From Ignavibacteriaceae bacterium (GTDB lineage: Bacteria > Bacteroidota > Ignavibacteria > Ignavibacteriales > Ignavibacteriaceae), in the NCBI GenBank assembly GCA_014879635.1, contig JACSRR010000163.1:1-42385 (forward strand): a stretch of DNA of 42,385 bases, read 5' to 3'. Position 1 is the first letter of the stretch; the number at the start of each line of letters is the position of its first letter. The translations under genes and the position numbers were made by a program. Under the pieces are notes generated by a model. The model saw nothing but the letters and a program-made list of their open reading frames with translations. It did no database searches and was not told the origin of the DNA. Below are positions 12,150-17,089 of this stretch, one piece after another.

Positions 12150-12380
12150 TTATGGTACCGGGTCATATCCGCTGCCGCCCCACGGATGACACCTTGAAAT
12201 TCTTTTTACAGATAGCCAAAATCCTTTAAATAGACCATATTTTTTAAACGCTTCAAGAGAGTAATGAGAGCAAGTAGGCATGTATCTGCATGAGGGCGGA
12301 AACAAAGGAGAAATCAATAGTTGGTATATTCTAATTATTAGAATAAACGGGTAAGACAATATCACTAAAAACTTTTTCAC
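12150..12380 (-). CDS. yidD: Membrane protein insertion efficiency factor YidD
   Basis: A 76-residue protein of the YidD (haemolytic-domain, DUF37) family, a small inner-membrane-associated protein that assists YidC-dependent membrane insertion. Visible family marks are an N-terminal amphipathic/hydrophobic helix, [17 protein letters not shown] with Cys31 and Cys37, and [14 protein letters not shown] with Cys64. The length is typical. The start is GTG at 12380. In most bacteria yidD lies between rnpA and yidC; here it leads a pyrE-peptidase operon, which is an unusual neighbourhood. A weak -7-like element is at 12404-12411. Confidence 0.95.
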
Positions 12381-12426: not shown

Positions 12427-12459
12427 ATAAAAAAAGAGACCCGCATTTTAGTGCGGGTC
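12427..12459 (-). terminator. Rho-independent terminator of the TonB receptor/T9SS protein operon
   Basis: Arms GACCCGCA (12438-12445) and TGCGGGTC (12452-12459) give an 8-bp GC-rich stem with a 6-nt loop. On the minus strand a T-rich tract follows (A-run at about 12427-12435 on the plus strand). It lies ~30 bp past the stop at 12490 and separates this operon from yidD. Confidence 0.9.
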
Positions 12460-12489
12460 CCCGTCGAAGTACGAGTATGAGGAGGAAAC

Positions 12490-14118
12490 TTATTTAAGTA
12501 AACTCATCTTTTTCGTAATATTTAAAGAACCTGAGGTAAGTTTATAAACATAAACACCGCTCGGTAAATTAGAAGCGTCAAAAGCAACTTCAAAAGTACC
12601 TGCGTTAACAAATTCATTAACTAAAGTTTCAATTTCTTCGCCTAAAGTGTTAAAAACTGCTAATCTAACATTTCCGGCTTCCGGAATCGAAAATCTAATT
12701 GTTGTTGACGGGTTAAAAGGATTCGGATAATTTTGTAATAAAGCAAAATTTGAAGGAGTATTAGAATCTAATTCTCTAACAGAAGTGGTATAATCTGTAT
12801 TTTGCGGATTGTAATTTGCCCAGCCGGCATCCCATCTTGGTCCGTTAGGGTCAAAAGCACCTACATAAGTTGTTTGCATGAAAAAGTTATCTAAAAGTCT
12901 TCCTGCAAACGAAGCACCGGATGCAGCAGGTGAACCAGCCATAGGTACTAAATTAGGATTGTCAAAATTAAAAGGATCGGTTAACATTACTTGTGAAGGT
13001 TGAACATAAGTTCTGTTACCATACGCAGGAGTATTCAACCAAGTATTGATATTAAAACCTGAAGCATTTGTGGTTATTCCGTTAAATTTGAGACCTGCAT
13101 AAATAGTATTTCTAATTTGAAGAGTATCGCCTGAAGCTGAATTACCTGAACCTGAGCCGTCAATAAATAAAGCGGTTGGCCAGCCCATGATAATTGAATT
13201 ATATGTTGAAGTTTGTGTTGATCTTCTTAAATGTTGACCTCTTCTGAATAGAGGATTGAAATCTGTGGCTGAAGTATCGGGCATAGGTCCTACAACAGTA
13301 ACATTAGAAAACCAAGGCTGAGTTCTGGGCGCATTAAACGAACCGCCACCGTCATTATCAGACTCAAAGCCGTTTGAAGAAGAAATATCTGCAATGTTTT
13401 TATTTCTAATTATTGCACCAAACTGAACTTTACCGTTGAAACCTAAGTCGGTATCAAAATCATCATCAACTGTACCGAACGAAATTAAGTACTTACCGTT
13501 AACATTACCGCCGAACCATTCAAAAGAATCATCACCGTTAAAACTTACCTGAATATATTCTAATGTGGTACCTCTACCTACACCGCCCATTGTTAATCCG
13601 TTAATTTCATTATCCGGAGATAAAGCAATACCTGAAAATTCGAGTCTTAAATAACGGATAACACCGCTATTGTCATCATCGTTAGGAGTAGCACCGCCGC
13701 CATAAATGGTTCCTGTGCCACCTTCAATTACTGCAGTACCTGCGGGTACATTAATTCTTGCATTACCGGCAATGATTATTCCACCCCAGTCGCCTGCTTG
13801 TCTTTGACCGGCAGGTTGCTGACTTGTGAAAACTATAGGTGCATTAGCAGTACCGTTAGCATTAATTTTAGCACCTCTATTAATGATAAGTGTTCCTTTA
13901 GAATCTTTTTCACCATAAATTACTGTACCGGCTTCAATATGTAAAGTAGCAGGGGCATTTACATTAACGAAACCTCTAAGTAAGTATCTTTTACTTTTGC
14001 TTAAGAATGCGTCTGAATTAATATTTCCTTCAATAACGCTATCCGCCGGAGATAATTGAGCTAATCCGGGTATAGCAAATATTACAAGAAATAAAAGAGT
14101 AATTAAGGATTTTTTCAT
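12490..14118 (-). CDS. T9SS-sorted beta-helix-like surface protein, partner of the upstream receptor
   Basis: A 542-residue secreted protein. Residues 1-21 are a signal peptide ending GLAQ. The body is rich in Gly, Asn and short strands, in the style of right-handed parallel beta-helix proteins (TLHIEAGTVIYGEKDSKGTL, GDWGGIIIAGNARINV, LEYIQVSFNGDDSFEWFGG, DDDFDTDLGFNGKVQFG). The acidic DDDFDTD stretch could bind metal. From about residue 455 there is a canonical sorting tail: LLQNYPNPFNPSTTIRF, VFNTLGEEIETLV, SGVYVYKL and a final KKMSLLK, so T9SS export and surface anchoring are expected. The gene lies 30 bp behind the second TonB receptor and ends at a strong terminator, so the two form a closed pair. 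A capture or processing role for that receptor's ligand is inferred from context only. Confidence 0.8.
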   Translation of the reverse strand: MKKSLITLLFLVIFAIPGLAQLSPADSVIEGNINSDAFLSKSKRYLLRGFVNVNAPATLHIEAGTVIYGEKDSKGTLIINRGAKINANGTANAPIVFTSQQPAGQRQAGDWGGIIIAGNARINVPAGTAVIEGGTGTIYGGGATPNDDDNSGVIRYLRLEFSGIALSPDNEINGLTMGGVGRGTTLEYIQVSFNGDDSFEWFGGNVNGKYLISFGTVDDDFDTDLGFNGKVQFGAIIRNKNIADISSSNGFESDNDGGGSFNAPRTQPWFSNVTVVGPMPDTSATDFNPLFRRGQHLRRSTQTSTYNSIIMGWPTALFIDGSGSGNSASGDTLQIRNTIYAGLKFNGITTNASGFNINTWLNTPAYGNRTYVQPSQVMLTDPFNFDNPNLVPMAGSPAASGASFAGRLLDNFFMQTTYVGAFDPNGPRWDAGWANYNPQNTDYTTSVRELDSNTPSNFALLQNYPNPFNPSTTIRFSIPEAGNVRLAVFNTLGEEIETLVNEFVNAGTFEVAFDASNLPSGVYVYKLTSGSLNITKKMSLLK

Positions 14119-14148: not shown

Positions 14149-16896
14149 TTAAAACCTGTATCCAAAACTTAGTGAGTAGCTTGTACCCTTTTGATTTACT
14201 CTCGAACGGTTATCACCCTGCGTAAAAACTTGTTCTTGATTGAGTAAATCTCTAATTGTAAACTTTAATTCGAAATTTTGATAGAACATCTGAGTAATTG
14301 CGAAATCAATCAGATCTCTAGATTGTTCAATAATATCATCTTCGTACAATGTAGCCACATCCATAATTCTTTTTCCGAATGTGTTATAGAGTAAGTTAAC
14401 TTCTGTACCGGTATTGAAGTTAGAATAACCAAGACTGAAGTTAAATGTATAAGGAGATTGCCCCTGAAGAGCTCTATCTGATCTACCAATTGTAGTTTCT
14501 GTTTCTTTAATATCAACACTTGATTTGATAAGCGTGTAATTTCCTGTTACAAAAAAGTTGTCAATTGCTTCAGATATAAAACCGAGTGATTTTCTGGCTT
14601 CAATTTCAAAACCGTAGTTAACAGCTCTTTCAGAATTCATAAATGTTCTTTCTGCATTGAGTGCCACACCGGGAACAACCACTTTTTCTATAGCATTTGA
14701 AATTTGTTTGTAAAAAGCGCTAACTGAAAAGAGTTCACCTGGTGCAGGATAAAGTTCGTACCTTAAATCAAAATTGTTTACTAATGCTCTGTCTAAATTA
14801 GGATTACCGGATACTGTAGTTTGTGTCTGGAAATCATAATATGAAAACGGAGCTAATTCTCTTAATTCAGGTCTATTTATAGTTTGACTGAAAGCAAATC
14901 TGAGGTTTGATAGTTCGTCAAGTGAGTAAATAAAATTTAACGACGGGAAGAAATCAGTTCTATCCAATTTAATTTGGAGTTCGTTCTGTCTTGATAAGTC
15001 CATAGAATTAACTTCTTGGAGGGCACTTTCAACTCTAACTCCGGCAATCATTCTTAATCTATTGCTTATAAAATCGAGCTGGGAATCAAACATAGCGTAA
15101 GCTGAAGCTGTTCTTTGAGCTGCGGTGTAATTATTAGTACCGTTAATATATTCACCGATTGAAAATCCGTTTCTTCTAAAGTTTGAAGAATCAAATATTT
15201 CTTCAAGAGGCAGGTATAATAAACTAAAATCAGTAAATCCATTTCCTGCGGCGTTAGTAATAACACTAATTAGTCTTGAGTTAAAGCCACGCTTTTTGTC
15301 ATCGTAAAGAAGTCCGGTTTTAATCTTAACTTCACCTAAGTTAAATGACAAATCAGTACCGAAACCTTTTGTATCTTCGTTCAAATCAGAGAAAAATCTA
15401 CCGCCGTTCTTTAAATTTGGTTGAAAACCTAAAGTTGCAGAGAATCTTTCGGCATCAAAAGCCTTTTGATATATAATTCTTCTATAATCAGGCTCATTTC
15501 TCTTTGATGATGAGTAATAAGCTCTCCAACCTAATAGGAGTTTTGATTCGGGAGAGAGGCTATGCTCACCGGTTAACTGACCGGTGTAAACATTTCTTGA
15601 AACAAACCTTAATGCGGTTTGCTGTTGATATGCGGCGGCGTCAGAATAATTTGCACCGTCAAGTAAAAATACATCATCATCAGCTGAATTTGTGTAAGTA
15701 TTTTTGAAACTGATTTTGTGCAAGTTTGAAAGTTTGTATGTTAGGTTAACCAAACCGCCCCATAAAACATTGTAGTTTGATTGAGTTCCCGTAAATTCAA
15801 ATCTTGGGTCACCGGATGCTTCATACTCGTTTCTTTCTAATTTTTCGGTTGAAAACGAATTTTTATAGGTTAAAGCAACTATATATCCTAAATCACTTCC
15901 GAATAACTCTGAAACATCACCGTAAGAAAGCCCGAGGCTTAAACCGGGGGCAGCTGTTTTAGTTGAGGATGCCCATGTATTATTTAAAGTTTTAGCGAGT
16001 TCTGTGATTTCGCCCGGTTTAAATAATTGAGAAGATATTTCAGACGGGAAATTATCGGGTAGTTTTCTGCTATTGTCAATACCTAAAAAATCGAGATTTC
16101 CGCCCTTGTAAGTCTGAAAATCTTTGAATGTTGAAAATGAATTGTAAGAAGTACCGATATTTAACCTGAGTGTTTGTGTGGCGGGAAAATCAACAGTGTT
16201 TAATTCAACTAATCCGCCGGAAAAATCACCGGGTAAATCAGGAGTAAAAGTTTTTCTGATTATTGTATTTTCAAGAAGGTTAGCAGGAAAGATATCGAAA
16301 GCGAAAGACTTTCTATCAGGTTCGGTGGATGACATTGAAGTATTATTTATCATCGCATTACTGTATCTTTCTGAAGTACCACGAACATAAACATATTTTC
16401 CTTCAACAATTGTAACTCCAGTTACGCGTTTTAATGCGTCACTTGAAGTAGCATCAGGACTCTTTTTAATTTGTTCGCCGCTTACGCCGTCACTAACTTG
16501 TGCGGCCTTTTTTTGTTGATTTAAAACTGCTGCAGTATATGAATTATCAGCCTTTGCGGTTACAACAACCTCTTCGGTTTCAATTACAGCTTCAGATAAA
16601 GCTACATCTATTACAACTGTTTGTCCGGATACAACTACAACTCCGGTTATTTTTTTTGTGTTATGTGTGATATAAGAAACAACTAAAGTGTAGGTACCAG
16701 CAGGAACGGCATTAATTCTAAAATCGCCTTGTAAATCGGTTGCGGCACCTAAATTTGTTCCTTCAATAAGCACATTAGCACCAATTATGGCTTCTGCGTT
16801 TTGTGCGTCAATTATTCTACCCGTAATTTTTCCCGGTTCTTGGGCAAAAAGAGTAGTACTCAAAAGTACCAGAAGGTACATTAAGAATTTGGTCAT
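14149..16896 (-). CDS. TonB-dependent receptor, possibly phosphate-regulated
   Basis: A 915-residue outer-membrane receptor. Residues 1-19 are a signal peptide. Residues ~22-105 form a carboxypeptidase-regulatory-like domain (GKITGRIIDAQNAEAIIGAN, PAGTYTLVVSYITH). The plug is at ~130-235 and contains SSDALKRVTGVTIVEGKYVY, EPDRKSFAFDIFPANLLENT and PGDFSGGLVELNT. The 'PDR..F.FDIFP' pattern recalls the large TonB-receptor group typified by TIGR01782. The barrel ends in the strand SYSLSFGYRF with a terminal Phe. ATG at 16896 follows AAGGAA. The upstream region has a -7 element without a -33 box but with four 11-bp-spaced TTAA boxes, suggesting activator-dependent, perhaps phosphate-starvation, control. 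Co-transcribed with the T9SS-sorted gene 30 bp downstream. Substrate unknown; if the operator reading is right, a phosphorus compound is plausible. Confidence 0.88.
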   Translation of the reverse strand: MTKFLMYLLVLLSTTLFAQEPGKITGRIIDAQNAEAIIGANVLIEGTNLGAATDLQGDFRINAVPAGTYTLVVSYITHNTKKITGVVVVSGQTVVIDVALSEAVIETEEVVVTAKADNSYTAAVLNQQKKAAQVSDGVSGEQIKKSPDATSSDALKRVTGVTIVEGKYVYVRGTSERYSNAMINNTSMSSTEPDRKSFAFDIFPANLLENTIIRKTFTPDLPGDFSGGLVELNTVDFPATQTLRLNIGTSYNSFSTFKDFQTYKGGNLDFLGIDNSRKLPDNFPSEISSQLFKPGEITELAKTLNNTWASSTKTAAPGLSLGLSYGDVSELFGSDLGYIVALTYKNSFSTEKLERNEYEASGDPRFEFTGTQSNYNVLWGGLVNLTYKLSNLHKISFKNTYTNSADDDVFLLDGANYSDAAAYQQQTALRFVSRNVYTGQLTGEHSLSPESKLLLGWRAYYSSSKRNEPDYRRIIYQKAFDAERFSATLGFQPNLKNGGRFFSDLNEDTKGFGTDLSFNLGEVKIKTGLLYDDKKRGFNSRLISVITNAAGNGFTDFSLLYLPLEEIFDSSNFRRNGFSIGEYINGTNNYTAAQRTASAYAMFDSQLDFISNRLRMIAGVRVESALQEVNSMDLSRQNELQIKLDRTDFFPSLNFIYSLDELSNLRFAFSQTINRPELRELAPFSYYDFQTQTTVSGNPNLDRALVNNFDLRYELYPAPGELFSVSAFYKQISNAIEKVVVPGVALNAERTFMNSERAVNYGFEIEARKSLGFISEAIDNFFVTGNYTLIKSSVDIKETETTIGRSDRALQGQSPYTFNFSLGYSNFNTGTEVNLLYNTFGKRIMDVATLYEDDIIEQSRDLIDFAITQMFYQNFELKFTIRDLLNQEQVFTQGDNRSRVNQKGTSYSLSFGYRF

Positions 16897-16930: not shown

Positions 16931-16938
16931 CAAACTTA
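16931..16938 (-). promoter_or_regulatory. -7 element of the second TonB receptor operon
   Basis: TAAGTTTG on the minus strand fits TAnnTTTG exactly, 34 nt before the ATG at 16896. No TTG occurs at the -33 position. The nearest of the 11-bp-spaced TTAA boxes starts 11 bp upstream, so bound activator would occupy the -33 region. Confidence 0.5.
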
Positions 16939-16947
16939 CTCTCCGTA

Positions 16948-16988
16948 TGTTAAGTAAATGTTAAGGCAACATTAACAGTTTGTTAAGG
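16948..16988 (-). promoter_or_regulatory. Pho-box-like operator: four TTAA boxes at exact 11-bp spacing
   Basis: TTAA cores start at 16950, 16961, 16972 and 16983, exactly one helical turn apart. Read on the minus strand the units are CTTAACA, GTTAATG, CTTAACA and CTTAACA. An 11-bp direct repeat of this kind is the hallmark of PhoB/PhoP operators; the B. subtilis PhoP box (TTAACA-like repeats) and the cyanobacterial box (CTTAACCT repeats) have a similar core and the same spacing. The array sits just upstream of the -7 element at 16931-16938, the right place for activation of the TonB receptor operon. It could also affect the divergent gene at 17090. The regulator identity is inferred. Confidence 0.6.
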
Positions 16989-17043: not shown

Positions 17044-17089
17044 ATTTTTCGTTAATTTTGATTTTCGAATAATTAATTTGATTAGGTAT

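Follow-up and report, generated by a model that had tools for sequence, protein, structure and literature searches.

Introduction

PhoP boxes of Bacillus read TT(A/C/T)ACA. The PHO boxes of E. coli (CTGTCAT) and Streptomyces (GTTCACC) are 11-nt direct repeat units, and PhoB is described as binding such repeats in tandem and head to tail while contacting the sigma subunit of the polymerase (PMC4415409). The Pho box as a kind of element is already known. Binding of PhoB to the pstC promoter has been shown in B. fragilis, and a box consensus was not seen in the accessible part of that report (PMC3547664). Likewise, no Pho-box consensus for Bacteroidota or Ignavibacteria was found in the accessible parts of the open-access literature; subscription journals lay outside the search and an earlier description is possible.

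Two receptor systems of the phosphate response have been described that resemble the genes analysed here. Fjoh_0545 (TBDT) and Fjoh_0546 (lipoprotein FII) of Flavobacterium johnsoniae are reported among the genes strongly induced by Pi depletion, and FI and FII are reported to share 31 to 36% identity with Caulobacter ElpS (PMC8115612). ElpS of Caulobacter crescentus is a phosphate-starvation-induced extracellular lipoprotein whose gene is next to that of the TonB receptor Cc0171. This receptor, which is paired with Pi-induced ElpS, is reported to be constitutive, showing that a receptor of this sort is not always co-regulated (PMC2996285).

Here we analysed a stretch of 42,385 nucleotides from an Ignavibacteriaceae bacterium (contig JACSRR010000163.1; referred to as the window), in which an array of 11-bp repeats precedes the genes of a TonB-dependent receptor and its secreted partner. 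The array resembles the PHO boxes in its organization (seven conserved and four less conserved bases per 11-nt tandem direct repeat) and in its location immediately 5' of the core promoters of phosphate genes, pst among them (PMC4415409). It differs from the known PHO boxes in the heptamer, which is CTTAACA here and usually occurs as four half-sites in a row, and in the fixed distance of 9 nt to a Bacteroidota -7 element (TAnnTTTG) without a -33 box. We consider it very probable that the array is a Pho-box operator and that it provides PhoB-type activation of the receptor and partner unit at low phosphate, likely for phosphorus import.

Array and promoter

The minus strand is the coding strand of the receptor gene, and the array on this strand is CTTAACA-AACT-GTTAATG-TTGC-CTTAACA-TTTA-CTTAACA. 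The four TTAA cores were read directly at +16950-16953, 16961-16964, 16972-16975 and 16983-16986 with a spacing of exactly 11 bp, which bears out the positions and the period given in the earlier note. The most distal half-site is CTTAACA at 16981..16987 (all half-sites on the minus strand), followed by GTTAATG at 16970..16976, the weakest among the four, CTTAACA at 16959..16965 and CTTAACA at 16948..16954, which is closest to the promoter. After this last half-site there is a 9-nt spacer, TACGGAGAG (16939..16947, minus strand), of conserved length and variable sequence, and then the -7 promoter element TAAGTTTG (16931..16938, minus strand, read directly), which is of the Bacteroidota type TAnnTTTG. 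The boxes had been said to be directly followed by this element; the element is present, but the 9 nt lie in between. The promoter had also been described as lacking a -33 box, and we saw no TTTG at the -33 position, the boxes being found in this region instead. A Pho box has at least two 7-nt direct repeats at an 11-bp period, and there are four here and in most orthologs. It takes the position of the -35 or -33 box, immediately before the core promoter, and the same location was found here, with a conserved distance of 9 nt to the predicted TAnnTTTG.

Of 59 genomes from the family and order (own genome included), 34 contain a receptor ortholog, and the upstream regions of 30 loci were analysed. 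The same array is present upstream of nearly all of them. At least three of the four boxes match CTTAACA in at least 6 of 7 positions at period 11 in 24 of the 30 promoters, and none of the 30 has at least three near-perfect boxes at periods of 7 to 10 or 12 to 16. The period-11 pattern was obtained 0 times in 200 rounds of mononucleotide shuffles. TAnnTTTG occurs at the same register in 16 of the 30 upstream regions. When these 16 loci were aligned with TAnnTTTG as the sole anchor, the mean match to CTTAACA peaked at -16, -27, -38 and -49 (6.0, 6.1, 5.75 and 6.1 of 7, respectively, with a background median of 1.85 of 7), and the TTAA core was nearly invariant. The orthologs are just 34 to 55% identical in protein sequence to the window receptor, and because the array is conserved despite this divergence it is a strong functional footprint. 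Distant Bacteroidota receptor-partner pairs show a weaker array in the same register (11 TAnnTTTG anchors).

Distribution of the array

In the own genome, a phnD-phnC-phnE-pstS-pstC cluster on contig C11 is preceded by an array of the same register, which lies 68 bp before phnD. A search for the same 11-bp array near pst or pho genes of this genome had been proposed as a check, with its absence to count as refutation, and the phnDCE-pstSC array shows that it is present. This array and those at the phnD, pstS, porin, phoB-like and receptor promoters of relatives support the earlier note in its reading of the array as a phosphate-regulation element. As is typical of a Pho box, the element is found before phosphate-uptake genes both in the own genome and in relatives. 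On C11, a penicillin-binding-protein-like ORF (C11:863-3223, L078, named by eye) abuts pstC, and pstA, pstB and phoU are missing from the cluster; G+C climbs from about 0.36 to 0.5 towards the contig end. The gene set and the G+C shift may be due to an assembly misjoin or to real loss. PhoU (TIGR02135) was not found in the own genome (94% complete), and OlsF was not found there in a search run without a positive control. The M28-pstS2 operon on contig C164 has no evident array. The same M28 peptidase-pstS2 pair (C164:1969-4427, L079) flanks the receptor and array in several relatives, and in the own genome the pair and the window locus seem to have come apart.

The exact pattern of three TTAAC at period 11 was found at 47 places in the 59 genomes (own included), compared to 3 in the reversed control. 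Reading of the neighbourhoods by eye indicated that about half of the distinct exact sites are located before the receptor, that most others precede operons of the pst, phn or porin-pst type or a metallophosphoesterase gene, and that approximately four lack an evident phosphate gene on the same strand. Looser arrays in relatives precede an olsF-like gene and a phoB-like gene (L125). In two relatives pstS terminates immediately 5' of the array and receptor. The strict motif TTAAC-N6-TTAAC-N10-TANNTTTG has one match in the own genome, the array before the receptor, and 15 matches in 198 genomes across the phylum (2 in the control). Six of the 15 sites precede PhoU-like genes, and in five of these cases a PitA-type transporter can be seen to follow (these calls were checked on one site with Pfam PF01865 (PhoU_div) and PF01384 (PHO4) and made by eye for the rest). 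Four precede TonB receptors, the window's included, one a phoBR pair, one an outer-membrane protein gene heading a pstS operon, and three other genes.

In some relatives (L113:16973-16999, L116:12688-12714 and L134:6531-6568) the array is found before an OlsF-like acyltransferase gene (PF19576 and PF13444) and a metallophosphoesterase gene. This suggests membrane-lipid remodelling as part of the array's regulon. A family with weak similarity to CDP-glycerol glycerophosphotransferases (c20) occurs repeatedly behind the array (L117:1785-2840, L134:5410-6444 and L238:1-388), once as the second gene after an LPG_synthase_TM gene (by eye). In the own genome, the only other perfect 4xTTAA 11-bp array (C363:3636-3672, L001:1501-1537) is situated between a serine-palmitoyltransferase-like gene and a divergent NAD-epimerase-like gene (both named by eye), a placement that would fit sphingolipids replacing phospholipids at low phosphate.

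Regulator and alternative readings

A PhoB-like response regulator gene with an overlapping histidine kinase gene is found on contig C63 of the own genome, not adjacent to the pst genes. The best NCBIfam model of the regulator is the Bacteroidota PhoB (PhoB_Bctds, NF053854) with a score of 214.6, which is below the curated cut-off of 270, and its best PDB match is RegX3. This PhoB-like protein is the likely regulator of the array. A different OmpR/PhoB-family regulator could bind the array in response to another signal, and its link to phosphate genes would then be indirect. Binding to direct repeats of near 11 bp is common among OmpR-family regulators, several OmpR-type regulators are encoded in the genome, and the PhoB-like protein does not reach the PhoB equivalog cut-off. 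We consider this improbable, given that phosphate transport and phoBR genes are where the sites cluster, in the order as in the wider phylum, and that in one relative (L125) even the phoB-like gene has an array in front of it.

It is less probable still that the divergent gene at 17078 is an additional target of the array, or its main one. The two genes have a 181-bp intergenic region in common, and to this extent the earlier note was right that a divergent phosphatase-family gene shares the region. The way the half-sites are oriented and their constant distance of 9 nt to a -7 element point to the receptor, however, and the array tracks the receptor in its orthologs. The divergent gene encodes an ordinary inositol-monophosphatase-family protein, and its position looks coincidental because no homologue was found near the receptor in 55 related neighbourhoods.

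The two perfect 4xTTAA arrays are the only ones in the whole AT-rich genome of 3.75 Mb. When the 181-bp intergenic region was put through 5000 dinucleotide shuffles, none had four TTAA at period 11 and two had four TTAA at some period of 8 to 14. TTAA alone is a weak signal across this AT-rich genome; what makes the array strong is the more complete CTTAACA heptamer, its register with the -7 element and the conservation. That the four TTAA are a chance pattern of AT-rich DNA can practically be dismissed: the looser genome-wide 4xTTAA matches show no excess over the reversed control and are mostly chance, and a second perfect match does exist at C363, but the local shuffles failed to give the array, and orthologs this divergent keep the box sequence, the period and the distance to the -7 element, which in our view already refutes this reading. 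Three candidate arrays in the own genome were rejected, C408:40726 inside a kinase ORF, C92:24545 inside an ORF, and C216:13558 with no downstream gene on its strand.

If the array is a Pho-box operator, phosphate limitation would lead to a phosphorylated PhoB-type regulator, presumably from the C63 PhoB/PhoR-like pair, which would bind the four CTTAACA-type half-sites head to tail with one subunit per 11 bp on a single helix face. The bound regulator would replace the absent -33 contact and recruit RNA polymerase to TAAGTTTG 9 nt downstream, and would thus activate rather than repress. The two-gene unit of TonB-dependent receptor and T9SS-exported surface protein would be switched on and would likely capture a phosphorus source and import it over the outer membrane. 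The captured phosphorus may then feed inner-membrane uptake by phnDCE/pst, predicted to be under the same operator.

Receptor and partner

The TonB-dependent receptor (915 aa; 14149..16896, minus strand) has an N-terminal carboxypeptidase-regulatory-like domain (Pfam PF13715, PF07715 and PF00593). Its best NCBIfam match is TIGR01782, below the cut-off of that model. The T9SS-sorted partner (542 aa; 12490..14118, minus strand) is encoded 30 bp 3' of the receptor and carries a Por_Secre_tail (PF18962/TIGR04183). A terminator-like hairpin with a T run directly after the partner gene (12435..12462, minus strand) is predicted to close the two-gene unit. Between this terminator and a phosphoribosyltransferase gene, a short ORF at 12150-12380 (minus strand), below the 90-aa ORF cut-off, reads as YidD by eye.

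Alignments and gene neighbourhoods showed that relatives of the partner are paired with the receptor across Bacteroidota. The partner gene is directly 3' of a homologous TonB receptor gene in most relatives, and the pair is also found in Chitinophaga, Flavobacterium, Spirosoma, Dyadobacter, Prevotella and Acanthopleuribacter. The AlphaFold2 model of the partner is confident (pLDDT 86) and mostly beta. Its structural matches in the PDB are partial, with PL3 pectate lyases at a target TM of about 0.5 to 0.6 and phage tailspikes at low TM. Sequence searches of the PDB with the partner and with the receptor gave no matches.

A pair homologous to the window pair was found in Flavobacterium fontis (31% identity for the receptor and 39% for the partner). 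It adjoins PhoR-PhoB and a PF04101 glycosyltransferase, and this neighbourhood matches the PhoBR region Fjoh_0541-0546 reported for F. johnsoniae (PMC8115612). As in the window, the order of Fjoh_0545/Fjoh_0546 is TonB receptor then secreted partner (PMC8115612); the likeness of the window pair to the Fjoh pair was drawn via the F. fontis counterpart sequences. The window partner is T9SS-sorted whereas the Fjoh partner is a lipoprotein, and the window pair is not beside phoBR. ElpS/Cc0171 is similar in that a phosphate-starvation-induced extracellular protein is encoded beside a TonB receptor, a likeness by description; ElpS is reported to be exported by T2SS and its receptor to be constitutive, in contrast to the T9SS-sorted partner here (PMC2996285). 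Phosphorus scavenging is the best guess for the window pair because it is homologous to low-Pi-induced pairs. The predicted regulation and these homologous pairs point to uptake of a phosphorus compound by receptor and partner. Of the proposals in the earlier note, the PhoB/PhoP-type promoter layout agrees with the array, register and conservation; the uptake of a phosphorus compound, which we infer, is one of its weaker parts, and the divergent gene is the other.

We lean towards the view that the array exemplifies a Pho box shared throughout the Bacteroidota/Ignavibacteria phylum (CTTAACA/11 bp, 9 nt, TAnnTTTG), for which we found no described consensus, and that the receptor and partner form an ancient outer-membrane phosphorus-scavenging machine that extends across Bacteroidota and to Acanthopleuribacter. 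The array defines, at the level of sequence, the probable phosphate-starvation operator of Ignavibacteria, and this definition probably holds for much of Bacteroidota too. Given the CTTAACA box, the sequences of genomes and MAGs alone may suffice to read phosphate regulons, with no need for culture. The receptor-partner pair is marked as probably phosphate-responsive across the phylum, which opens the question of the imported substrate to bench work. In an Ignavibacterium MAG, a second partner-like gene (L152:2-1405) is found 5' of the array and receptor, besides the downstream one.
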